Source: Candidatus Gastranaerophilales bacterium (GTDB lineage: Bacteria; Cyanobacteriota; Vampirovibrionia; Gastranaerophilales; Gastranaerophilaceae). Taken from it: a stretch of DNA of 64,000 bases. Below, in pieces: positions 17,065-26,349 of this stretch (position 1 is its first letter; each line of letters begins with the position of its first letter). The DNA is taken from contig CALUPH010000006.1 in assembly GCA_944322615.1 (NCBI GenBank), positions 1 to 64,000 of the forward strand, in the 5' to 3' direction. Below the pieces are notes generated by a model. It saw only the letters and a list, made by a program, of their open reading frames with translations. It made no database searches and was not told the DNA's origin. The translations under genes were made by a program, and so were the position numbers.

Positions 17065-17574
17065 ATGTTAAGATTTGGACTTGTTTCAAAAATACACAAT
17101 GAAAAACCACTAGTTAGAGTTAATTTCCTTGATGATAACAGTTTTTCATACTGGTTAAATGTTCTACAATCAAAAACTCAAAATGACAAATTTTACATAA
17201 TGCCAGATATTGGAGAACAAGTTGTTTGTCTTATGGATCAACATTCAGAAGAAGGTGTTGTTTTAGGTTCTATTTATTCTGATACAGATAAATCTCCATT
17301 TACAGAAAATAAACAAATAATCATTCAGCTAGAAAATAACTCATTAATTTCAATTAATAAAGAAGAAAACAATCTTACTATTAAATTTCCCAATATATAT
17401 TTTAAAGGAAATATTCATCACGACGGAGTTTTTCAAAATACACAAGGTATAAAATCAAGTGGAGATATAGAAGATAAAACTTCAACAATAGAAGTGGTAA
17501 GAACAATATATAATTCTCACACTCATATTGGGAATGAAGGGAAACCTACATCAACACCAAACACAAATATGTGA
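17065..17574 (+). CDS. Phage baseplate assembly protein V (spike), prophage remnant
   Basis: A 169-residue protein resembling the P2 gpV/Gp45 spike family, the puncturing tip of contractile tails. The N-terminal OB-fold part has PLVRVNFLDDNSFSYWLNVL and then MPDIGEQVVCLMDQHSEEGVVLGSIYSD, which is the family signature. A beta-helix stretch follows (about 100-145), and the C-terminus has YNSHTHIGNEGKP, where the HTH histidines bind iron at the spike apex. It is slightly shorter than P2 gpV. No clear ribosome site precedes ATG 17065. It is followed by an inserted ParDE module and then a baseplate W gene, the V-W order of P2-like phages. No other tail gene remains. Confidence 0.75.
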   Translation: MLRFGLVSKIHNEKPLVRVNFLDDNSFSYWLNVLQSKTQNDKFYIMPDIGEQVVCLMDQHSEEGVVLGSIYSDTDKSPFTENKQIIIQLENNSLISINKEENNLTIKFPNIYFKGNIHHDGVFQNTQGIKSSGDIEDKTSTIEVVRTIYNSHTHIGNEGKPTSTPNTNM

Positions 17575-17874
17575 TTAAAACATAGCGCATATATCTTGAT
17601 GAACAGTTAATACCCTTAAAATAGTAAGTGTTTTATCATCTGATTTATAAACAATCAAATAATTCTTTTTTATTACATAAAATTTTACATCCATATATGT
17701 AAAATCTTTTCTAGCTCGTCCCAAATTTGGTTGTGATGCCAACAGGTTAAATGTTTCATAAAAATCACTCACCAAATTTCTAGCAGCCCTAACATTATCC
17801 TTTGAAATATAATCTGCTATAACCTCAATATCTGATAATGCTACACTCTTTATTTCTAAATTTAAATCACTCAT
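17575..17874 (-). CDS. parE: ParE/RelE-family toxin
   Basis: A 99-residue protein of typical ParE size, with ALSDIEVIADYIS near the N-terminus, LASQPNLGRARKDF in the middle and KKNYLIVYKSDDKTLTILRVLTVHQDI at the end, all typical of the RelE/ParE fold. ParE toxins poison DNA gyrase, while RelE relatives cleave mRNA; the pairing with a ParD-type antitoxin favours ParE. It overlaps the antitoxin gene by 8 bases and would be translated from the same transcript. It begins one base after the end of the baseplate V gene and lies on the opposite strand, so it was inserted between V and W. Confidence 0.85.
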   Translation of the reverse strand: MSDLNLEIKSVALSDIEVIADYISKDNVRAARNLVSDFYETFNLLASQPNLGRARKDFTYMDVKFYVIKKNYLIVYKSDDKTLTILRVLTVHQDICAMF

Positions 17875-18103
17875 ACTTCTTCATTAATTCTTTCATTGCA
17901 GAATGCCCATCAAGTGTAACGGGATCATCCAAACCAACCTGAATATCTTTTTTTAACTTTTCAATATATTCTTGAGGAACTCTGTCTTTTTCAATTAGTA
18001 ATCTAATAGCTTCCCTTACAACTTCACTTACTGAATTATATAATCCACAAGCAACTTTATCTTGTACATATTTTTCTAGAGCTGGAGTTAAAGATATATT
18101 CAT
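17867..18103 (-). CDS. parD: ParD-family ribbon-helix-helix antitoxin
   Basis: A 78-residue antitoxin starting MNISLTPALEKYVQDKVACG, then YNSVSEVVREAIRLLIEKD. This is the classical ParD ribbon-helix-helix that binds its own promoter as a dimer, followed by a C-terminal toxin-binding helix. ATG 18103 is chosen because GAGGTG precedes it at correct spacing; GTG 18109 would place the start inside that site. Its promoter is at 18135-18164 and is presumably autorepressed by ParD or ParDE. The toxin gene follows with an 8-base overlap. Confidence 0.9.
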   Translation of the reverse strand: MNISLTPALEKYVQDKVACGLYNSVSEVVREAIRLLIEKDRVPQEYIEKLKKDIQVGLDDPVTLDGHSAMKELMKKYE

Positions 18104-18134
18104 TTTCACCTCATTAATAACAAACTATGCTTTT

Positions 18135-18164
18135 ATTATAACAAACATTGACATAGATTTTCAA
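18135..18164 (-). promoter_or_regulatory. Promoter of parDE
   Basis: On the minus strand TTGAAA (18159-18164), an 18-base spacer and TATAAT (18135-18140), 32 bases upstream of the antitoxin ATG. The antitoxin operator is expected here but I see no perfect inverted repeat. Confidence 0.65.
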
Positions 18165-18179
18165 TATTTATTAACAACT

Positions 18180-18527
18180 ATGAAAACATTAAATCAAATA
18201 ACTTATGTAGATTGGCAAATAAAAATTAATTCTATTGGAGATGTAGTCGAAGGTGCAGAAGATATTAATCAGTCAATAGCAATAATTTTAATGACAAGAA
18301 AAGGCTCAGACCCTCATCGTCCTACCTTTGGTTCTAATATTCATTTATACATTGACTATCCCATTAACGAAGCCTCAGCCAATATTATCAGAGAAACAAC
18401 TGATGCAATAACAGAATGGGAAACAAGAATAACTCTTAATTCAGTATATATTTGCTACAAGGTTTATTTATCTCTAAACGAATTGAACGATTACTCTTTA
18501 ATCCCTTCGCCCTTGCAACTATATTAA
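18180..18527 (+). CDS. Phage baseplate protein W (gp25-like), prophage remnant
   Basis: A 115-residue protein of the gpW/gp25 lysozyme-like baseplate wedge family. The diagnostic stretch is GSDPHRPTFGSNIHLYIDYP (about 40-59), followed by ANIIRETTDAITEWETRITL. That is nearly the family consensus, in which a glycine-arginine-proline turn precedes a helix ending in WE-x-RI. The last 20 residues (from LNELNDY on) do not resemble the usual beta-strand end, so the C-terminus may be altered. In P2-like phages W follows V directly; here parDE lies between them. No J, I or tail genes follow. Confidence 0.75.
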   Translation: MKTLNQITYVDWQIKINSIGDVVEGAEDINQSIAIILMTRKGSDPHRPTFGSNIHLYIDYPINEASANIIRETTDAITEWETRITLNSVYICYKVYLSLNELNDYSLIPSPLQLY

Positions 18528-18798: not shown

Positions 18799-18871
18799 CT
18801 GGGGCGGAAGGATTCGAACCTCCGAGATGCCTGGACCAAAACCAGGTGCCTTACCACTTGGCGACGCCCCA
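18799..18871 (-). tRNA. tRNA-Gln (anticodon UUG)
   Basis: The minus strand reads TGGGGCGTCGCCAAGTGG, then TAAGGCACCTGGTTTTGG with anticodon TTG, and a T arm GGAGGTTCGAATCCTTC closing with CGCCCCA. The acceptor stem and U1-A72 pair are typical of tRNA-Gln. The discriminator is G at 18799, and CCA is not encoded. It bounds the accessory region on the right. Confidence 0.93.
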
Positions 18872-20671: not shown

Positions 20672-21340
20672 TTAAAAAGCACAAATGCAAATGACAGTTG
20701 TTAATATTCCGATTATAATTAATGCTAAAGTAGCCATTACAACTTGTTTGTCTTTTTTCTTTTCTACACAGCTTGATGTACCCATAACATGACTTGAAGC
20801 ACCTATTGAAAGACCGATAGCTACATCACTTTTTATATGGAACAATTTTAATATTTTATGTCCGAATAAAGCTCCGTATATGCCTGTAACTACAACAATG
20901 CACGCTGTAAGTTCAGGTATTCCGCCTATTGCTTTTGATATTTCAACGGCAATAGGTGTAGTTACGGATTTTGGTATTAATGATGTAATAATATTCCAGT
21001 CAGAATGCATTAATTTCCCGAGAATGAATGTTGTTGTTATTGCGGTTAATGCTGCTACTATAAAACCAAAATATACTGCTCTTTTGTTCTTTTTTAAAAG
21101 TGATAGATTTTCCACCAAAGGAAATGCTAATGAAATTGTAGCCGGACCCAATAAAAGAGTATACATACAAGCAGATTCATTGTAACTTTGATAATCTATA
21201 TGGAATATTTTTAAAAAAATAATTAAAATTATTCCGGACAGCATTAAAGGTGGAATTTTTTTTAAATATTTAAACTTCCTTGATTTTTTCGATAATTCAT
21301 AAATAAGGAATGTTGTAATAAAACCCCATAAGTTAACCAT
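20672..21340 (-). CDS. lrgB: LrgB/CidB family murein-hydrolase export regulator
   Basis: A 222-residue polytopic protein of usual LrgB length. Recognisable are LLGPATISLAFPLVEN, SLIPKSVTTPIAVEIS, GIPELTACIVVVTGIYGALFG and the C-terminal GIGAS-like stretch (GLSIGASSHVMGTSS). LrgB works with LrgA in membrane-based control of autolysis or overflow-metabolite export; its exact biochemical action is unsettled. It starts 8 bases inside lrgA with AAGGAA upstream, so the pair is translationally coupled. Confidence 0.88.
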   Translation of the reverse strand: MVNLWGFITTFLIYELSKKSRKFKYLKKIPPLMLSGIILIIFLKIFHIDYQSYNESACMYTLLLGPATISLAFPLVENLSLLKKNKRAVYFGFIVAALTAITTTFILGKLMHSDWNIITSLIPKSVTTPIAVEISKAIGGIPELTACIVVVTGIYGALFGHKILKLFHIKSDVAIGLSIGASSHVMGTSSCVEKKKDKQVVMATLALIIIGILTTVICICAF

Positions 21341-21725
21341 TGTGAATTTTCCTTATTTTATGGAGTCTGACAAATTTTATAACATTTTCAACAAATATTG
21401 CAGTTACTATTAATGTTATAGTTGTTGTTAGAATAACATTCATTGCAATAGGTATTAGATTTTTTTGCAAAATACTGTAGTAAGATATAATTCCTACAAA
21501 TAATGGTACGAATAATAACGGCATATATTTTAATAGTAAATTACAGATATCTTTTACCCAATCTTTTTTGATAATATTAAGTTTCAAAAGAAATGCAAAA
21601 AGTATAATTCCTAAAATTGGAGACGGAATTATTATATGTGTATATTTAACAATACAGTTACAAATGAATTGTATTGCACATAAAATAAACAATCCTATAA
21701 AATGTTTTATGATTCGGCTAAACAT
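21333..21725 (-). CDS. lrgA: LrgA/CidA family holin-like protein
   Basis: A 130-residue protein with four hydrophobic helices and the family pattern PSPILGIILFAFLLKLNIIK followed by MPLLFVPLFVGIISYY. LrgA/CidA are small holin-like membrane proteins that act with LrgB. An extended -10 (TGC-TAACAT) ends exactly 6 bases before its ATG and no Shine-Dalgarno is seen, so the operon mRNA is probably leaderless. No LytSR-type regulator is adjacent. Confidence 0.87.
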   Translation of the reverse strand: MFSRIIKHFIGLFILCAIQFICNCIVKYTHIIIPSPILGIILFAFLLKLNIIKKDWVKDICNLLLKYMPLLFVPLFVGIISYYSILQKNLIPIAMNVILTTTITLIVTAIFVENVIKFVRLHKIRKIHNG

Positions 21726-21750: not shown

Positions 21751-23751
21751 CTAAATATTTACATTATTTTTTTGTGCAGAATATTCATCATAGGGTCTAT
21801 AGCCTTTAGGTATTTTGTATTTGAATTTTTTAGAGCCAAAATTGGCTTGCCATAGCCAATTTTTATCCGGCGAAACAGCTGCAGTATATTCTCTTCCGTC
21901 ATTTTCAAATTTGTATGCCCCTGCTTTAGTTTCAGGATTACCGAGAATCCACTTCCCATTCCTGGAAAGATACAAATTCCCATTATCGAAATCAACCGCA
22001 ATTCCTAGAACATCATTGTTTTCAAAATTTTCATCTATCGAACTTAATATATCGTATGCGTAGCATTCATCGGTTACAGACCAATGATTACATTCGTAAA
22101 TATGTTCATATTCTGAAATTATTCCGGCTTTTATATATTTTCTGCCATGAGATGTGTTTCTTTTTAATGTTAATTCAAAATAATATTTGCCTTTATTAAA
22201 ATATTTATTTGTAGAATAGAGATTGAAACTATCATCTACTATTTCTAATCCGTCGGAAGAAACATTTGAACGGAAGAAAAACTCGCTAACAAAGCGAACC
22301 GCTTCTTTTGTTGATTCATGTTTTGGAAATTCTTTATATCTTGTTCCATTATATCCATCAACTAAAAAATAATCACTTTGATGTTTATATTGAAAAGATG
22401 TTGGTTCTTTTTCAAAATAATCTTTTATTTTTCTCGAATTTGAATCTTTAAAATATTTGCGTGAGTTTAACTTTTCAATAGGAATTTTTTTTGATTTTAC
22501 TATAACATCTCCATCGTAGTATCCACCAAAATATATTTTTTTTATATTAACTCCGGGGATTGTTTTTATATCCCATATTACAGACTCATAACTTGTCAGT
22601 AAAAGGGTTATAGGTGTGTTTGTTTTTTCAACCCTTACTCTAACCTTACCTGTTAGATGTTCTGCAAACTCTCTTTCTTTATCATAATGTCCATGATAAA
22701 CAGATACAACATGTAAATCACCTATTACTTGATGTTTAGGCTCTGCATTTTTTTTCGGTGTTGCATCTCTTTTTATTATTGGATTATTGATTTTTGGTTT
22801 TTTACTACTTCGATTATCAATTACTTCAATTTTAGACATATATGTATTTTCTGATAGTTTATCCGGGATTATATCGAATGAATAATTTACAATAAGATTA
22901 TTTTTATTGTCTACTAATCCCCATTTATTGTTTTTCATTACCCAAAATGTATTATTTTCTTTGAAATTGCGAGTTATTTTCTCGTATTCGCAAGGCAAAA
23001 TATATTCACCTTTTATGTTAATTATCCCATATTTATTATTTTTTTCTATTTTAAAAAGATAATCTTCAGGACTTTTATATGATAATATAATTTTTTCTAC
23101 ATATGGTGTTTTTAAAACTTTTTTTCCTTTATCATTAATAATGTAATACTTATTATCCTTTTTAATTTCAAAAAGCTTTTTTCCAATTTGTTCAATTAAT
23201 GATATATTTTTAATTTTAAAGAGATATTTTAAGTTGTTATTATTATATACTTTACAAATACCATTTTTTGATAAAAAGATATATTCTTTATTTATATATA
23301 TTTTGTCGTATTTTGTTGGGAAAATTTTTTTCCCATTTTTATCTAATAATCCATATTTTACACTTCTGTAATCGTGTTTAAAATAATTTTTCATCTCAGA
23401 AACAATAAAAAAATTATTATTATAATTTATATTTAAATATTTACATGGAATTATAGTTTTTCCCTTAGAATCAATTATACAAGTTTTGTTATTAGCTTTA
23501 CTTGCAATAAATAAATTGTTATTTAGACGGTATAAATGCGAATACCTGTTTTTATCAATAGGCTTTCCTTCTGAATCGGCAATATAATATTTCTCTACTT
23601 TTTCTAATGGGGGTTTCTTATTTTGGACTTCGTTTACAAAGTTGATTAAATTTCTTTGAAAAGATTCTTTACCAATACTAAATAATATTGCTAATTCAAC
23701 TATGACAATAAACAATAATAGTATAGATAATCTTTTATAAATATCTTTCAT
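21751..23751 (-). CDS. Membrane-anchored WG-repeat protein with C-terminal SPRY domain (copy 1)
   Basis: A 666-residue protein. An N-terminal signal anchor (about 8-27) puts the rest outside. Residues about 50-310 are WG-type beta repeats (KYGLLDKNGKKIFPTKYDKI, KWGLVDNKNNLI). Residues about 340-450 form a separate beta domain with PITLLLTSYESVIWDI and a GYYDGDV end. From about 498 a SPRY domain follows: GKYYFELTL, VLGIAVDFDNGNLYLSRNGK, and the end NFGSKKFKYKIPKGYRPYD. SPRY domains bind proteins or peptides and are mainly known from eukaryotes. AAAGGA precedes ATG 23751, 3 bases after its paralogue's stop. Function unknown; probably an extracytoplasmic binding protein. Confidence 0.7.
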   Translation of the reverse strand: MKDIYKRLSILLLFIVIVELAILFSIGKESFQRNLINFVNEVQNKKPPLEKVEKYYIADSEGKPIDKNRYSHLYRLNNNLFIASKANNKTCIIDSKGKTIIPCKYLNINYNNNFFIVSEMKNYFKHDYRSVKYGLLDKNGKKIFPTKYDKIYINKEYIFLSKNGICKVYNNNNLKYLFKIKNISLIEQIGKKLFEIKKDNKYYIINDKGKKVLKTPYVEKIILSYKSPEDYLFKIEKNNKYGIINIKGEYILPCEYEKITRNFKENNTFWVMKNNKWGLVDNKNNLIVNYSFDIIPDKLSENTYMSKIEVIDNRSSKKPKINNPIIKRDATPKKNAEPKHQVIGDLHVVSVYHGHYDKEREFAEHLTGKVRVRVEKTNTPITLLLTSYESVIWDIKTIPGVNIKKIYFGGYYDGDVIVKSKKIPIEKLNSRKYFKDSNSRKIKDYFEKEPTSFQYKHQSDYFLVDGYNGTRYKEFPKHESTKEAVRFVSEFFFRSNVSSDGLEIVDDSFNLYSTNKYFNKGKYYFELTLKRNTSHGRKYIKAGIISEYEHIYECNHWSVTDECYAYDILSSIDENFENNDVLGIAVDFDNGNLYLSRNGKWILGNPETKAGAYKFENDGREYTAAVSPDKNWLWQANFGSKKFKYKIPKGYRPYDEYSAQKNNVNI

Positions 23752-23754
23752 TAA

Positions 23755-25473
23755 TTATCCTTTGCTATAAGCTTTATATCCATCAGGTACTATATATTTA
23801 AATTTTTGTGCACCAAAATTAACAGTTAAAGTTTCATTATATCCGGCTACAGAAAATGCAGGATATAGTGATTTGTCTTTTATCGTAATTCCTTCTGTGC
23901 TATCATAAGGATTCATTATCGACCAATCACCATTTATTGCAATATATAACTTATTATTATCAAAATCTATAGCAAAGCATATAATGTCATTAGATTTTAA
24001 TTTATAGTTGTTTTTTATAATAGATGAAAGAGACCAACTTTTGTATGTTATTTTTTTGTTGGGAGGGGAATTTATTAATGAAAATTTTGTCTTTGCAGAT
24101 ATTTCCGCGTTATCAGATGTATTTATTTGTGCCTCAAAATAATATCTGCCTCTATCTCTTGATTTGTTTGCAATGTAGTAGTTCTGCCAACCGCAATATT
24201 TTACACTTAAACCATTTGGAGAAATATGACACATTGTATTTTCATATCTTTCATCACAAATCAATTTGGTAAATATATTCTTTCTCTTATTATTGAGAAA
24301 ATCAGATCTGTAATTTGTTTTATGTAATGGTTGTTTAGGCGGTGTTTTATATGATTCACTTTCATCTAAATTTATATAGGCTGATTTATTATTAATTTCA
24401 AGTTTTGGTTCTTTATATTTACTAATTAAATCTATATATTCTTCTTTTAACATAACTTTTTTCTTAGACAATACTTTTCTTGAGGAAGGTAAAATCTGAG
24501 GTTCTAAAGGTTTTTCTTTTTTGTTTGTAAAAATTTCTGATATATAGTTAGGAGCACCTGTTAAATCAGGATTTTCAATGTATTCACCTTCTATATTAAC
24601 AGCAACATATAAATTATTTTTAGAACATATTAATAATGGTTTATTTGTTTTTCCCTTATAAATTTGAATACTGTTAAAAATCGGTGGGATAATTATATTA
24701 TTACTATTATCTATAATTCCTTCTTTATCATTGGAAGAAATACCAACATTATATTGTAGTTTAAAATAACCTTTATCATTAATAGTGGTAAAATAAAAAA
24801 TATTGTATTTAGTATCTGTAATAATTATTTTGCCGAAAAGGTCGGTTAAAAAATATTTTTTATTTCTTTTTAATTTTAGATATTTGTTATTTAATATAGA
24901 AGGTCTTTTTTCAGAAAAAACCGAAGCAATCTTTTTTATATTTTTGTCATAGATTATATAGATATTATTATTGCTATCAGATTTGCTTATAAAATAAGAA
25001 CCTTCGCCAACTATATTATGCCCGTTTAAAATTTCTTTTCCATTTATGTCTAAAACAATATATTTTTGACTATGTTCTACTGCTTTGTATAAATTTGTTT
25101 TATTATTGAATTCTATTGAAAGATATTTTAATGGAAGAATATAATTACCATTAAAATCAACAACTCCATAAAAAATACCTTTTCTCACGAGTATACGGTT
25201 TTCAGATAAAATAGAATAAGAATCAAAAATATCATTTGTTAATTTTTTCTGAGTTTTATCTGTCAAAATATACTTATATGATTTATATCTGTTATTTCTA
25301 TAGTTGTAAGAAGAAAAAGAAATTTGCTTTTTATATGAATATATCTTTCTAAAATCATTTTTTAAGTTGAGATATTTAATATTTATACTGCCATAATTGA
25401 TGTATATAAACAGTGCTAAAATGATAGAAAAAAATGTTAGTAAAAAAACTATCCTTTTATAAAAATTATTCAT
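23755..25473 (-). CDS. Membrane-anchored WG-repeat protein with C-terminal SPRY domain (copy 2)
   Basis: A 572-residue paralogue of the next gene downstream. It has one membrane anchor (about 6-25), then WG-like repeats (about 60-310, for example YGVVDFNGNYILPLKYLSI and KEGIIDNSNNIIIPPIF) and a Lys/Pro-rich linker. The SPRY domain starts at about residue 410, with GRYYFEAQI, ICFAIDFDNNKLYIAINGDW and VNFGAQKFKYIVPDGYKAY. It lacks the middle beta domain of copy 1. ATG 25473 is chosen over TTG 25476 because AAGGA lies at good spacing. It is the first gene of a two-gene operon with a TATAAT box just upstream. Confidence 0.7.
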   Translation of the reverse strand: MNNFYKRIVFLLTFFSIILALFIYINYGSINIKYLNLKNDFRKIYSYKKQISFSSYNYRNNRYKSYKYILTDKTQKKLTNDIFDSYSILSENRILVRKGIFYGVVDFNGNYILPLKYLSIEFNNKTNLYKAVEHSQKYIVLDINGKEILNGHNIVGEGSYFISKSDSNNNIYIIYDKNIKKIASVFSEKRPSILNNKYLKLKRNKKYFLTDLFGKIIITDTKYNIFYFTTINDKGYFKLQYNVGISSNDKEGIIDNSNNIIIPPIFNSIQIYKGKTNKPLLICSKNNLYVAVNIEGEYIENPDLTGAPNYISEIFTNKKEKPLEPQILPSSRKVLSKKKVMLKEEYIDLISKYKEPKLEINNKSAYINLDESESYKTPPKQPLHKTNYRSDFLNNKRKNIFTKLICDERYENTMCHISPNGLSVKYCGWQNYYIANKSRDRGRYYFEAQINTSDNAEISAKTKFSLINSPPNKKITYKSWSLSSIIKNNYKLKSNDIICFAIDFDNNKLYIAINGDWSIMNPYDSTEGITIKDKSLYPAFSVAGYNETLTVNFGAQKFKYIVPDGYKAYSKG

Positions 25474-25540
25474 CAAAATCCTTAGTATTATAAGATGTAA
25501 AAATTGAATTTATTATTTAACTATTATTCCCTTTTTTGCA

Positions 25541-25603
25541 AAAAATGAAACGAGAAAAATATAATTATATTTCATTAATTAATGTTTATCTCGTTTCATT
25601 TTT
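25541..25603. terminator. Terminator of the SIMPL-domain gene
   Basis: Arms AAAAATGAAACGAGA and TCTCGTTTCATTTTT pair perfectly over 15 bp around a 33-base AT-rich loop. Ending in A/T runs on both strands, it can work in either direction. Confidence 0.7.
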
Positions 25604-25611
25604 ATTAAAAT

Positions 25612-26349
25612 TTATTTTACGGTAAAAGTAGCAGTAACTGTTGCAACAACTTTCTTTTCAATAGAAGATGTATCATTATATCCATAATCAGAAACATCTG
25701 TAGAATCAATAGGTACAATTTGGAATACACCCATTTTGGCACTGTTTATTGGACCTATTTTCCCATTTGTTGCCTTAACCATGCTATTTGCTCGATCCTG
25801 TGCGTTTTTAGTTGCTTCCCCAACCATTTTTACTTTTATATCATCAAGATTTGAAACGAAATATTTTATGTTTCCGGTAGTTAAATTAATATCTTGATTA
25901 ACCAAAACATCTATTTTTTTTGATAGATTTGTTAAAGTTTCAGTGTCATTTGCTTTAATTGTAACATTTTGGAATACTGTATAGTTTTCAATTTCGTTTG
26001 TAGTATTTCCGTTTGGAGTCCTTTTGTGATTTTCATAACTTCCAATAGAAGCAAAATTTATGTTTTTTTCATCAATCCCGTTTTCTAGGAGAAATTTTTT
26101 GATTTTTACAGCATCTGAATTGATTTTAGAATACCCTTCTTTTAATGTTGGAGCAATTGCCCTATAGTCAATATTCCAAGAGGAAGAATCAGACGTAACA
26201 TTTTGGCTTGCGCTGCCTGTTACTCTTATTGTTTGATTTTGTAATTTCTGAAATTCTATGATTCCCTTGGATAAAATATATGTTGAACAAACACTTCCAA
26301 GAGCTATTAGAACACCCAATAAAACAACTTGATAATCTTTAATTTGCAT
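25612..26349 (-). CDS. SIMPL-domain (DUF541) periplasmic protein
   Basis: A 245-residue protein with an N-terminal signal anchor (about 8-27) followed by a SIMPL domain. The pattern includes IRVTGSASQNVTSDSSSWNI, KKFLLENGIDEKNI, a paired TLTNLSKKIDVLVNQ segment and AQDRANSMVKATNGKIGPI. Relatives are periplasmic or outer-membrane associated proteins linked to stress resistance; mechanism unknown. GGAGTTT stands before ATG 26349. It is monocistronic, bounded by the terminators at 25541 and 26404. Confidence 0.8.
   Translation of the reverse strand: MQIKDYQVVLLGVLIALGSVCSTYILSKGIIEFQKLQNQTIRVTGSASQNVTSDSSSWNIDYRAIAPTLKEGYSKINSDAVKIKKFLLENGIDEKNINFASIGSYENHKRTPNGNTTNEIENYTVFQNVTIKANDTETLTNLSKKIDVLVNQDINLTTGNIKYFVSNLDDIKVKMVGEATKNAQDRANSMVKATNGKIGPINSAKMGVFQIVPIDSTDVSDYGYNDTSSIEKKVVATVTATFTVK

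Follow-up and report, generated by a model that had tools for sequence, protein, structure and literature searches.

SPRY/B30.2 domains are known from DDX1, Ash2L, RanBP9/10, the ryanodine receptor and TRIM proteins, and they also occur in the tail-fibre and virion proteins of phages, such as the SPRY/lectin proteins of Synechococcus phage S-BM3 and Pelagibacter phage HTVC022P, where SPRY acts as an external binding module. The origin of the domain has been placed in phage tail proteins (PMC8195603; PMC7824862). The orphan domain of betaglycan (TGFBR3) and endoglin, which in animals binds TGF-beta or BMP (PMC11865472; PMC3275592), was reported to be without homology to known proteins, and its name reflects this lack of relatives (PMC3275592). 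A further point of comparison is given by the WG (KWG) repeat proteins, recognized by the Pfam model WG_beta_rep, of which the genus considered here holds many.

Here, we describe two adjacent genes, W1 and W2, which join WG repeats to a C-terminal SPRY domain and, in the case of W1, to a middle domain with the predicted fold of the betaglycan/endoglin orphan domain (BGO-like domain). They are located in a stretch of 64,000 nucleotides (the window) from the 1.96-Mb genome of a Candidatus Gastranaerophilales bacterium, a member of a gut-dwelling lineage of non-photosynthetic relatives of cyanobacteria. W1 and W2 share with the SPRY/B30.2 proteins the fold and the motifs GKYYFE, DFDNGxLYxSxNG, and NFGxKKFKY, but differ from them in being bacterial, probably extracytoplasmic and fused to WG repeats (W1 also to the BGO-like domain), with no RING, helicase or channel partner. 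Unlike the phage SPRY proteins, they are not encoded in a phage and appear to be anchored in the inner membrane, and most of the WG matches in the genus, unlike W1 and W2, come without a SPRY or a BGO-like domain. The genes of the locus are as follows.

Positions 20672 to 21725, minus strand: lrgA (21333 to 21725) and lrgB (20672 to 21340), the constant downstream flank
Positions 21751 to 23751, minus strand: W1 (copy 1), 666 amino acids from an ATG, with a predicted transmembrane anchor, WG repeats, the BGO-like (orphan-domain-like) domain and SPRY
Positions 23755 to 25473, minus strand: W2 (copy 2), 572 amino acids from an ATG, with a predicted transmembrane anchor, WG repeats, a linker and SPRY
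Positions 25612 to 26349, minus strand: gene of the SIMPL (DUF541) protein, the constant upstream flank of the variable locus

In the direction of transcription, the order on the minus strand is nusA, the SIMPL gene, W2, W1, lrgA, and lrgB. W2 could alternatively start at a TTG at position 25476, one codon upstream of the ATG (23755 to 25476, 573 amino acids). Only 3 nucleotides separate the W2 stop from the W1 ATG in the window, the two frames overlap by 1 nucleotide in genomes G020, G022, and G026, and lrgA starts 25 nucleotides past the W1 stop. Past the SIMPL gene there is a hairpin with a T run (about 25541 to 25599; seen by eye and not reported by the scan), so that W2 and W1 probably have their own promoter. 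Four other species have the pair in the same gene order and with the same neighbours; it is therefore neither a chance arrangement nor an assembly artefact. The initial annotation had described two adjacent paralogues with a set of SPRY-type motifs, all of which are present, and had deemed the arrangement unlike any characterized system; we likewise found none in the open literature. PHROGs and NCBIfam gave no name to either protein, and scans of a viral contig collection found no relatives.

Of 41 genomes in the genus, five (G000, G001, G020, G022, and G026) carry the pair, always beside the SIMPL gene, and in all five it is chromosomal, between SIMPL/NusA and LrgAB/FtsY, and not encoded in a phage tail module. 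SPRY domains of this type were detected in six of the 41 genus genomes and in 4 of 306 sampled genomes of the family, one of which belongs to another genus; elsewhere in the class, we found them in one distant exoprotein. This is a Ser-rich protein of at least 1909 residues with an open 5' end, from another genus of the class (L137:1207-6936). In G011 the site is empty, lrgA following SIMPL directly, with flanking proteins 94 to 100% identical, whereas G018, G006, and G344 carry a radical-SAM/glycosyltransferase cassette at that site and G001 carries both cassette and pair. Since the interval between SIMPL and LrgA can thus be occupied by the pair, by the cassette or by nothing, we regard it as a variable locus between constant genes. 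The cassettes of sister species in this interval map to L018:8685-10791, L127:7571-9677, L128:1247-3353, and L129:1296-3383; the radical-SAM protein is 99% identical and the glycosyltransferase 93% identical between G018 and G001, and the glycosyltransferase frame is broken in G344. LrgAB was considered as a functional partner of the pair and rejected as the default, its link to the pair not being stable.

The domains of the two proteins, all on the minus strand, were delimited as follows.

Positions 23674 to 23730, minus strand: putative W1 signal anchor, residues 8 to 26, oriented N-in C-out by the positive-inside rule
Positions 22867 to 23586, minus strand: W1 WG-repeat region, residues about 56 to 295, modelled as propeller-like and all-beta
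Positions 22747 to 22857, minus strand: W1 linker, predicted as disordered, residues 299 to 335, pLDDT about 30
Positions 22348 to 22722, minus strand: W1 middle domain, residues 344 to 468, with the predicted fold of the betaglycan/endoglin orphan domain
Positions 21778 to 22314, minus strand: W1 SPRY domain, residues 480 to 658, from profile and predicted structure
Positions 25396 to 25452, minus strand: putative W2 signal anchor
Positions 24544 to 25296, minus strand: W2 WG-repeat region, limits approximate
Positions 23764 to 24276, minus strand: W2 SPRY domain, residues about 400 to 570, a row of the SPRY family profile

Each protein has a single N-terminal hydrophobic helix (mean hydropathy, 2.95 in W1 and 2.56 in W2), preceded by Lys/Arg, and neither a second transmembrane segment nor a lipobox, in agreement with the membrane anchors proposed initially. 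The helices are assigned as signal anchors by hydropathy and charge alone. Given the positive charges N-terminal to the helix and the absence of a lipobox, the domains most likely lie in the periplasm of a presumed two-membrane cell rather than on its outer surface. The WG repeats, another element of the initial annotation, are well supported in W1 (Pfam WG_beta_rep, 2e-14, 53.7 bits against a gathering score of 25.6), while those of W2 fall slightly below that threshold (4.3e-5, 23.9 bits, with 25.3 bits for its relative). In Foldseek, the best matches of the W1 WG model were BamB and other propellers, at an rmsd of 7 to 12 A, which gives no blade count.

Single-sequence searches with the Pfam SPRY model remained under the gathering score for both proteins (0.039 for W1 and 3.7e-4 for W2). 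A SPRY profile built from eight relatives, searched against the sequences of the PDB, matched SPRY proteins in 18 of 18 cases, with a best E value of 8.6e-7 (DDX1), and the model of W1 residues 480 to 658 superimposed on the SPRY domains of DDX1 and Ash2L (4xw3 and 4x8p) with a Z score of 17.8 and 2.3 to 2.6 A over 158 to 159 residues. The assignment of both C-terminal domains to SPRY, first made from the sequence, is thus confirmed, by profile and modelling for W1 and at the profile level for W2. The initial annotation had called SPRY best known from eukaryotic recognition proteins; it serves as a recognition module in animal immunity, but it is less exotic in bacteria than supposed, given the origin in phage tail proteins that published work assigns to it (PMC8195603; PMC7824862).

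The extra middle domain that had been noticed in copy 1 is indeed present there and has no counterpart in W2. A Pfam scan of this domain and of its BGO-like family returned no family. When modelled on its own from 20 sequences, the middle domain reached a pLDDT of 91, and all confident Foldseek matches of the model were orphan domains of betaglycan or endoglin (E values down to 4e-5, with a probability of 1.00 for those chains only). According to VIA, Z scores to betaglycan and endoglin were 8.6 to 11.4, the best one (11.4) at 2.5 A over 115 residues, whereas the next unrelated chain scored 4.1. The structure predictor was trained on public structures, which may include endoglin. Sequence profiles point in the same direction: in profiles A3, A4, A6, and A7, at least one of which was built without Gastranaerophilales sequences (A6 and A7 are named as such), betaglycan ranked first among all PDB chains, with weak E values of 0.019, 0.0097, 0.0079, and 0.02, respectively; enlarging the profile to 35 sequences gave no sharper match (the E value of 0.02). 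A weak sequence motif, ELH...KPxVLVLSSYEPVxW, is shared with both betaglycan subdomains, the second of which aligns to it much more weakly. The orphan-domain fold of the middle domain is therefore well supported by prediction, and its homology with the betaglycan/endoglin domain is likely, the sequence support taken alone being marginal. We grant slightly less than an even chance to the proposal that the bacterial family is truly homologous to the animal co-receptor domain, which would then descend from a bacterial domain widely used for extracytoplasmic binding or have a common ancestor with it; the identification of the bacterial family makes the origin of the orphan domain in animals testable. 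W1 is predicted to share the fold of one orphan-domain subdomain, but it has a single such domain followed by SPRY, whereas betaglycan and endoglin have the pair OD1-OD2 followed by a ZP domain and bind ligands of the TGF-beta family; W1 has no known ligand of that type. Searches of open-access literature found no earlier report of bacterial relatives of the orphan domain; other journals may contain some.

According to profile searches, this undescribed bacterial domain family spans at least seven phyla or classes: Cyanobacteriota, Deltaproteobacteria, Gammaproteobacteria, Chloroflexi, Planctomycetes, Verrucomicrobia, and Elusimicrobia. It is present in other Gastranaerophilales and, at the C-terminus of single-TM proteins of about 350 amino acids, in many filamentous cyanobacteria. 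Additional genomes from two of these groups had the domain in 17 of 282 and in 10 of 244 cases. Within proteins, it stands beside lipoprotein signals, transmembrane helices, Stig1/EGF-like repeats, and MopE motifs, which argues for an extracytoplasmic location. In one deltaproteobacterial protein (L045:535-3429), 13 Stig1-like repeats and MopE motifs precede the orphan-domain-like domain, and a protein of Candidatus Uabimicrobium amorphum (Planctomycetes; L077:2833-4614) has two such domains in tandem, the nearest bacterial parallel to OD1/OD2 of betaglycan. A tblastn search with the domain against phages and plasmids gave no match, so that no phage- or plasmid-borne status is shown for it. 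The linker between the BGO-like and SPRY domains, KHxSTDKEV, is conserved, and copy 1 of G020 and G026, which has no SPRY, stops at its KH. Since G004 and G1000 carry BGO-like and SPRY domains without WG repeats, behind signal-peptide-like N-termini, the recurring unit is the combination of BGO-like and SPRY domains.

We propose, with about equal confidence for and against, that W2 and W1 form a recognition pair which is anchored in the inner membrane, acts outside the cytoplasm and has its SPRY part exchanged and diversified. The two proteins would be made together, presumably by co-translation, from one short operon and held in the inner membrane by their N-terminal anchors, with propeller-like WG stalks presenting the recognition heads in the periplasm; the head would be SPRY in W2 and, in W1, the BGO-like domain rigidly joined to SPRY. 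That the heads are extracytoplasmic is suggested by the signal-peptide-like N-termini of G004 and G1000 and by the occurrence of the BGO-like domain elsewhere behind lipoprotein signals, transmembrane helices and EGF-like/Stig1 repeats. They may bind an extracytoplasmic protein or glycan; extracytoplasmic binding had been put forward in the initial annotation, and we too regard it as the likely role. The SPRY face would change through the import of divergent segments and through clustered change in short patches, with conflict or partner diversity as the presumed cause. In these bacterial proteins, SPRY would be put to use behind a membrane anchor, with a binding segment that varies.

Protein change is high: between the window and G001, we counted 115 non-silent and 89 silent changes for W1 and W2 together, compared with 20 and 136, respectively, for five genes of the flanks (p = 4e-18). 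The dS of the W1 SPRY segment was 0.41, against 0.07 to 0.12 in the other W1 domains (p = 1e-8), and for this reason the segment looks recombined between the two closest W1 copies, as an imported divergent segment; W2 SPRY showed no such mosaic in the same comparison. Since dS is also raised in the downstream genes lrgA and lrgB (0.27 to 0.29), the imported tract may extend into them. The W1 SPRY domain has 31 residue changes, most of them in five patches with limits set post hoc, after the data had been seen (clustering permutation, p about 1e-5). The patches are the following.

Positions 22129 to 22161, minus strand: densest variable patch of W1 SPRY, residues 531 to 541, with 9 of 11 residues differing from the closest relative and zero silent changes
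Other four patches of W1 SPRY: residues 504 to 512, 554 to 559, 574 to 581, and 627 to 635

Enrichment of the patches in loops over strands was not significant (p = 0.07). TRIM proteins have variable SPRY faces, a parallel to the variable segment of W1. We do not claim positive selection on the patches, as dS is raised as well, which points to recombination, and with one close pair of W1 alleles, selection on the patches is inseparable from the import of one diverged allele. Separately, copy 1 of G020 and G026 (L020:6864-8309 against L021:5566-7032) differs by a very divergent WG patch at codons 196 to 240, with a dN of about 0.37 to 0.40, although the two species are otherwise close. The high non-silent rate could also reflect relaxed constraint, as expected if the pair were an ordinary periplasmic scaffold or housekeeping sensor. 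In favour of this, loss is frequent: the majority of genomes in the genus are without the pair, and copy 1 has lost SPRY in G020 and G026. We nevertheless consider this reading improbable, given that frames are open in every copy found and that the core motifs of SPRY and its linker to the BGO-like domain are conserved while change is clustered.

A role in envelope defence, with the SPRY heads trapping phage tail or ejected proteins and LrgAB possibly acting as lysis effector, would agree with the SPRY domains known from tail fibres and virion proteins of phages and with the patchy presence, empty site and fast change expected of a conflict gene. However, G011 keeps LrgAB without the pair and other genes split LrgAB from the pair in G001 and G022, so that the link looks incidental, and as of 2021 SPRY had not been observed in any prokaryotic conflict system (PMC8195603), which makes such a role unlikely. 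Just as doubtful is a role as adhesins on the cell surface that bind an animal host or a mucosal protein, and the host binding and surface exposure of the initial annotation find no support here. Isolates of close relatives were obtained from animal guts (with rabbit and rumen-like sample names), and TGF-beta or BMP is bound in animals by an orphan-domain-like fold (PMC11865472; PMC3275592), but the anchor is of the inner-membrane type, implying the periplasm, with no outer-membrane or cell-wall attachment, most gut relatives lack the pair, and host binding cannot be the general role of a BGO-like family that is present in free-living cyanobacteria and in Myxococcus-like and marine bacteria.

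Elsewhere in the window, we observed isolated contractile-tail genes on the plus strand (17065 to 18527), encoding a baseplate V/spike OB protein and a gp25-like baseplate protein. They adjoin a tRNA (18799 to 18871) and may be a phage or injection-system remnant, separate from the pair; a ParD/ParE-type toxin-antitoxin pair (17575 to 18109, minus strand) is inserted between these two genes in the reverse orientation.
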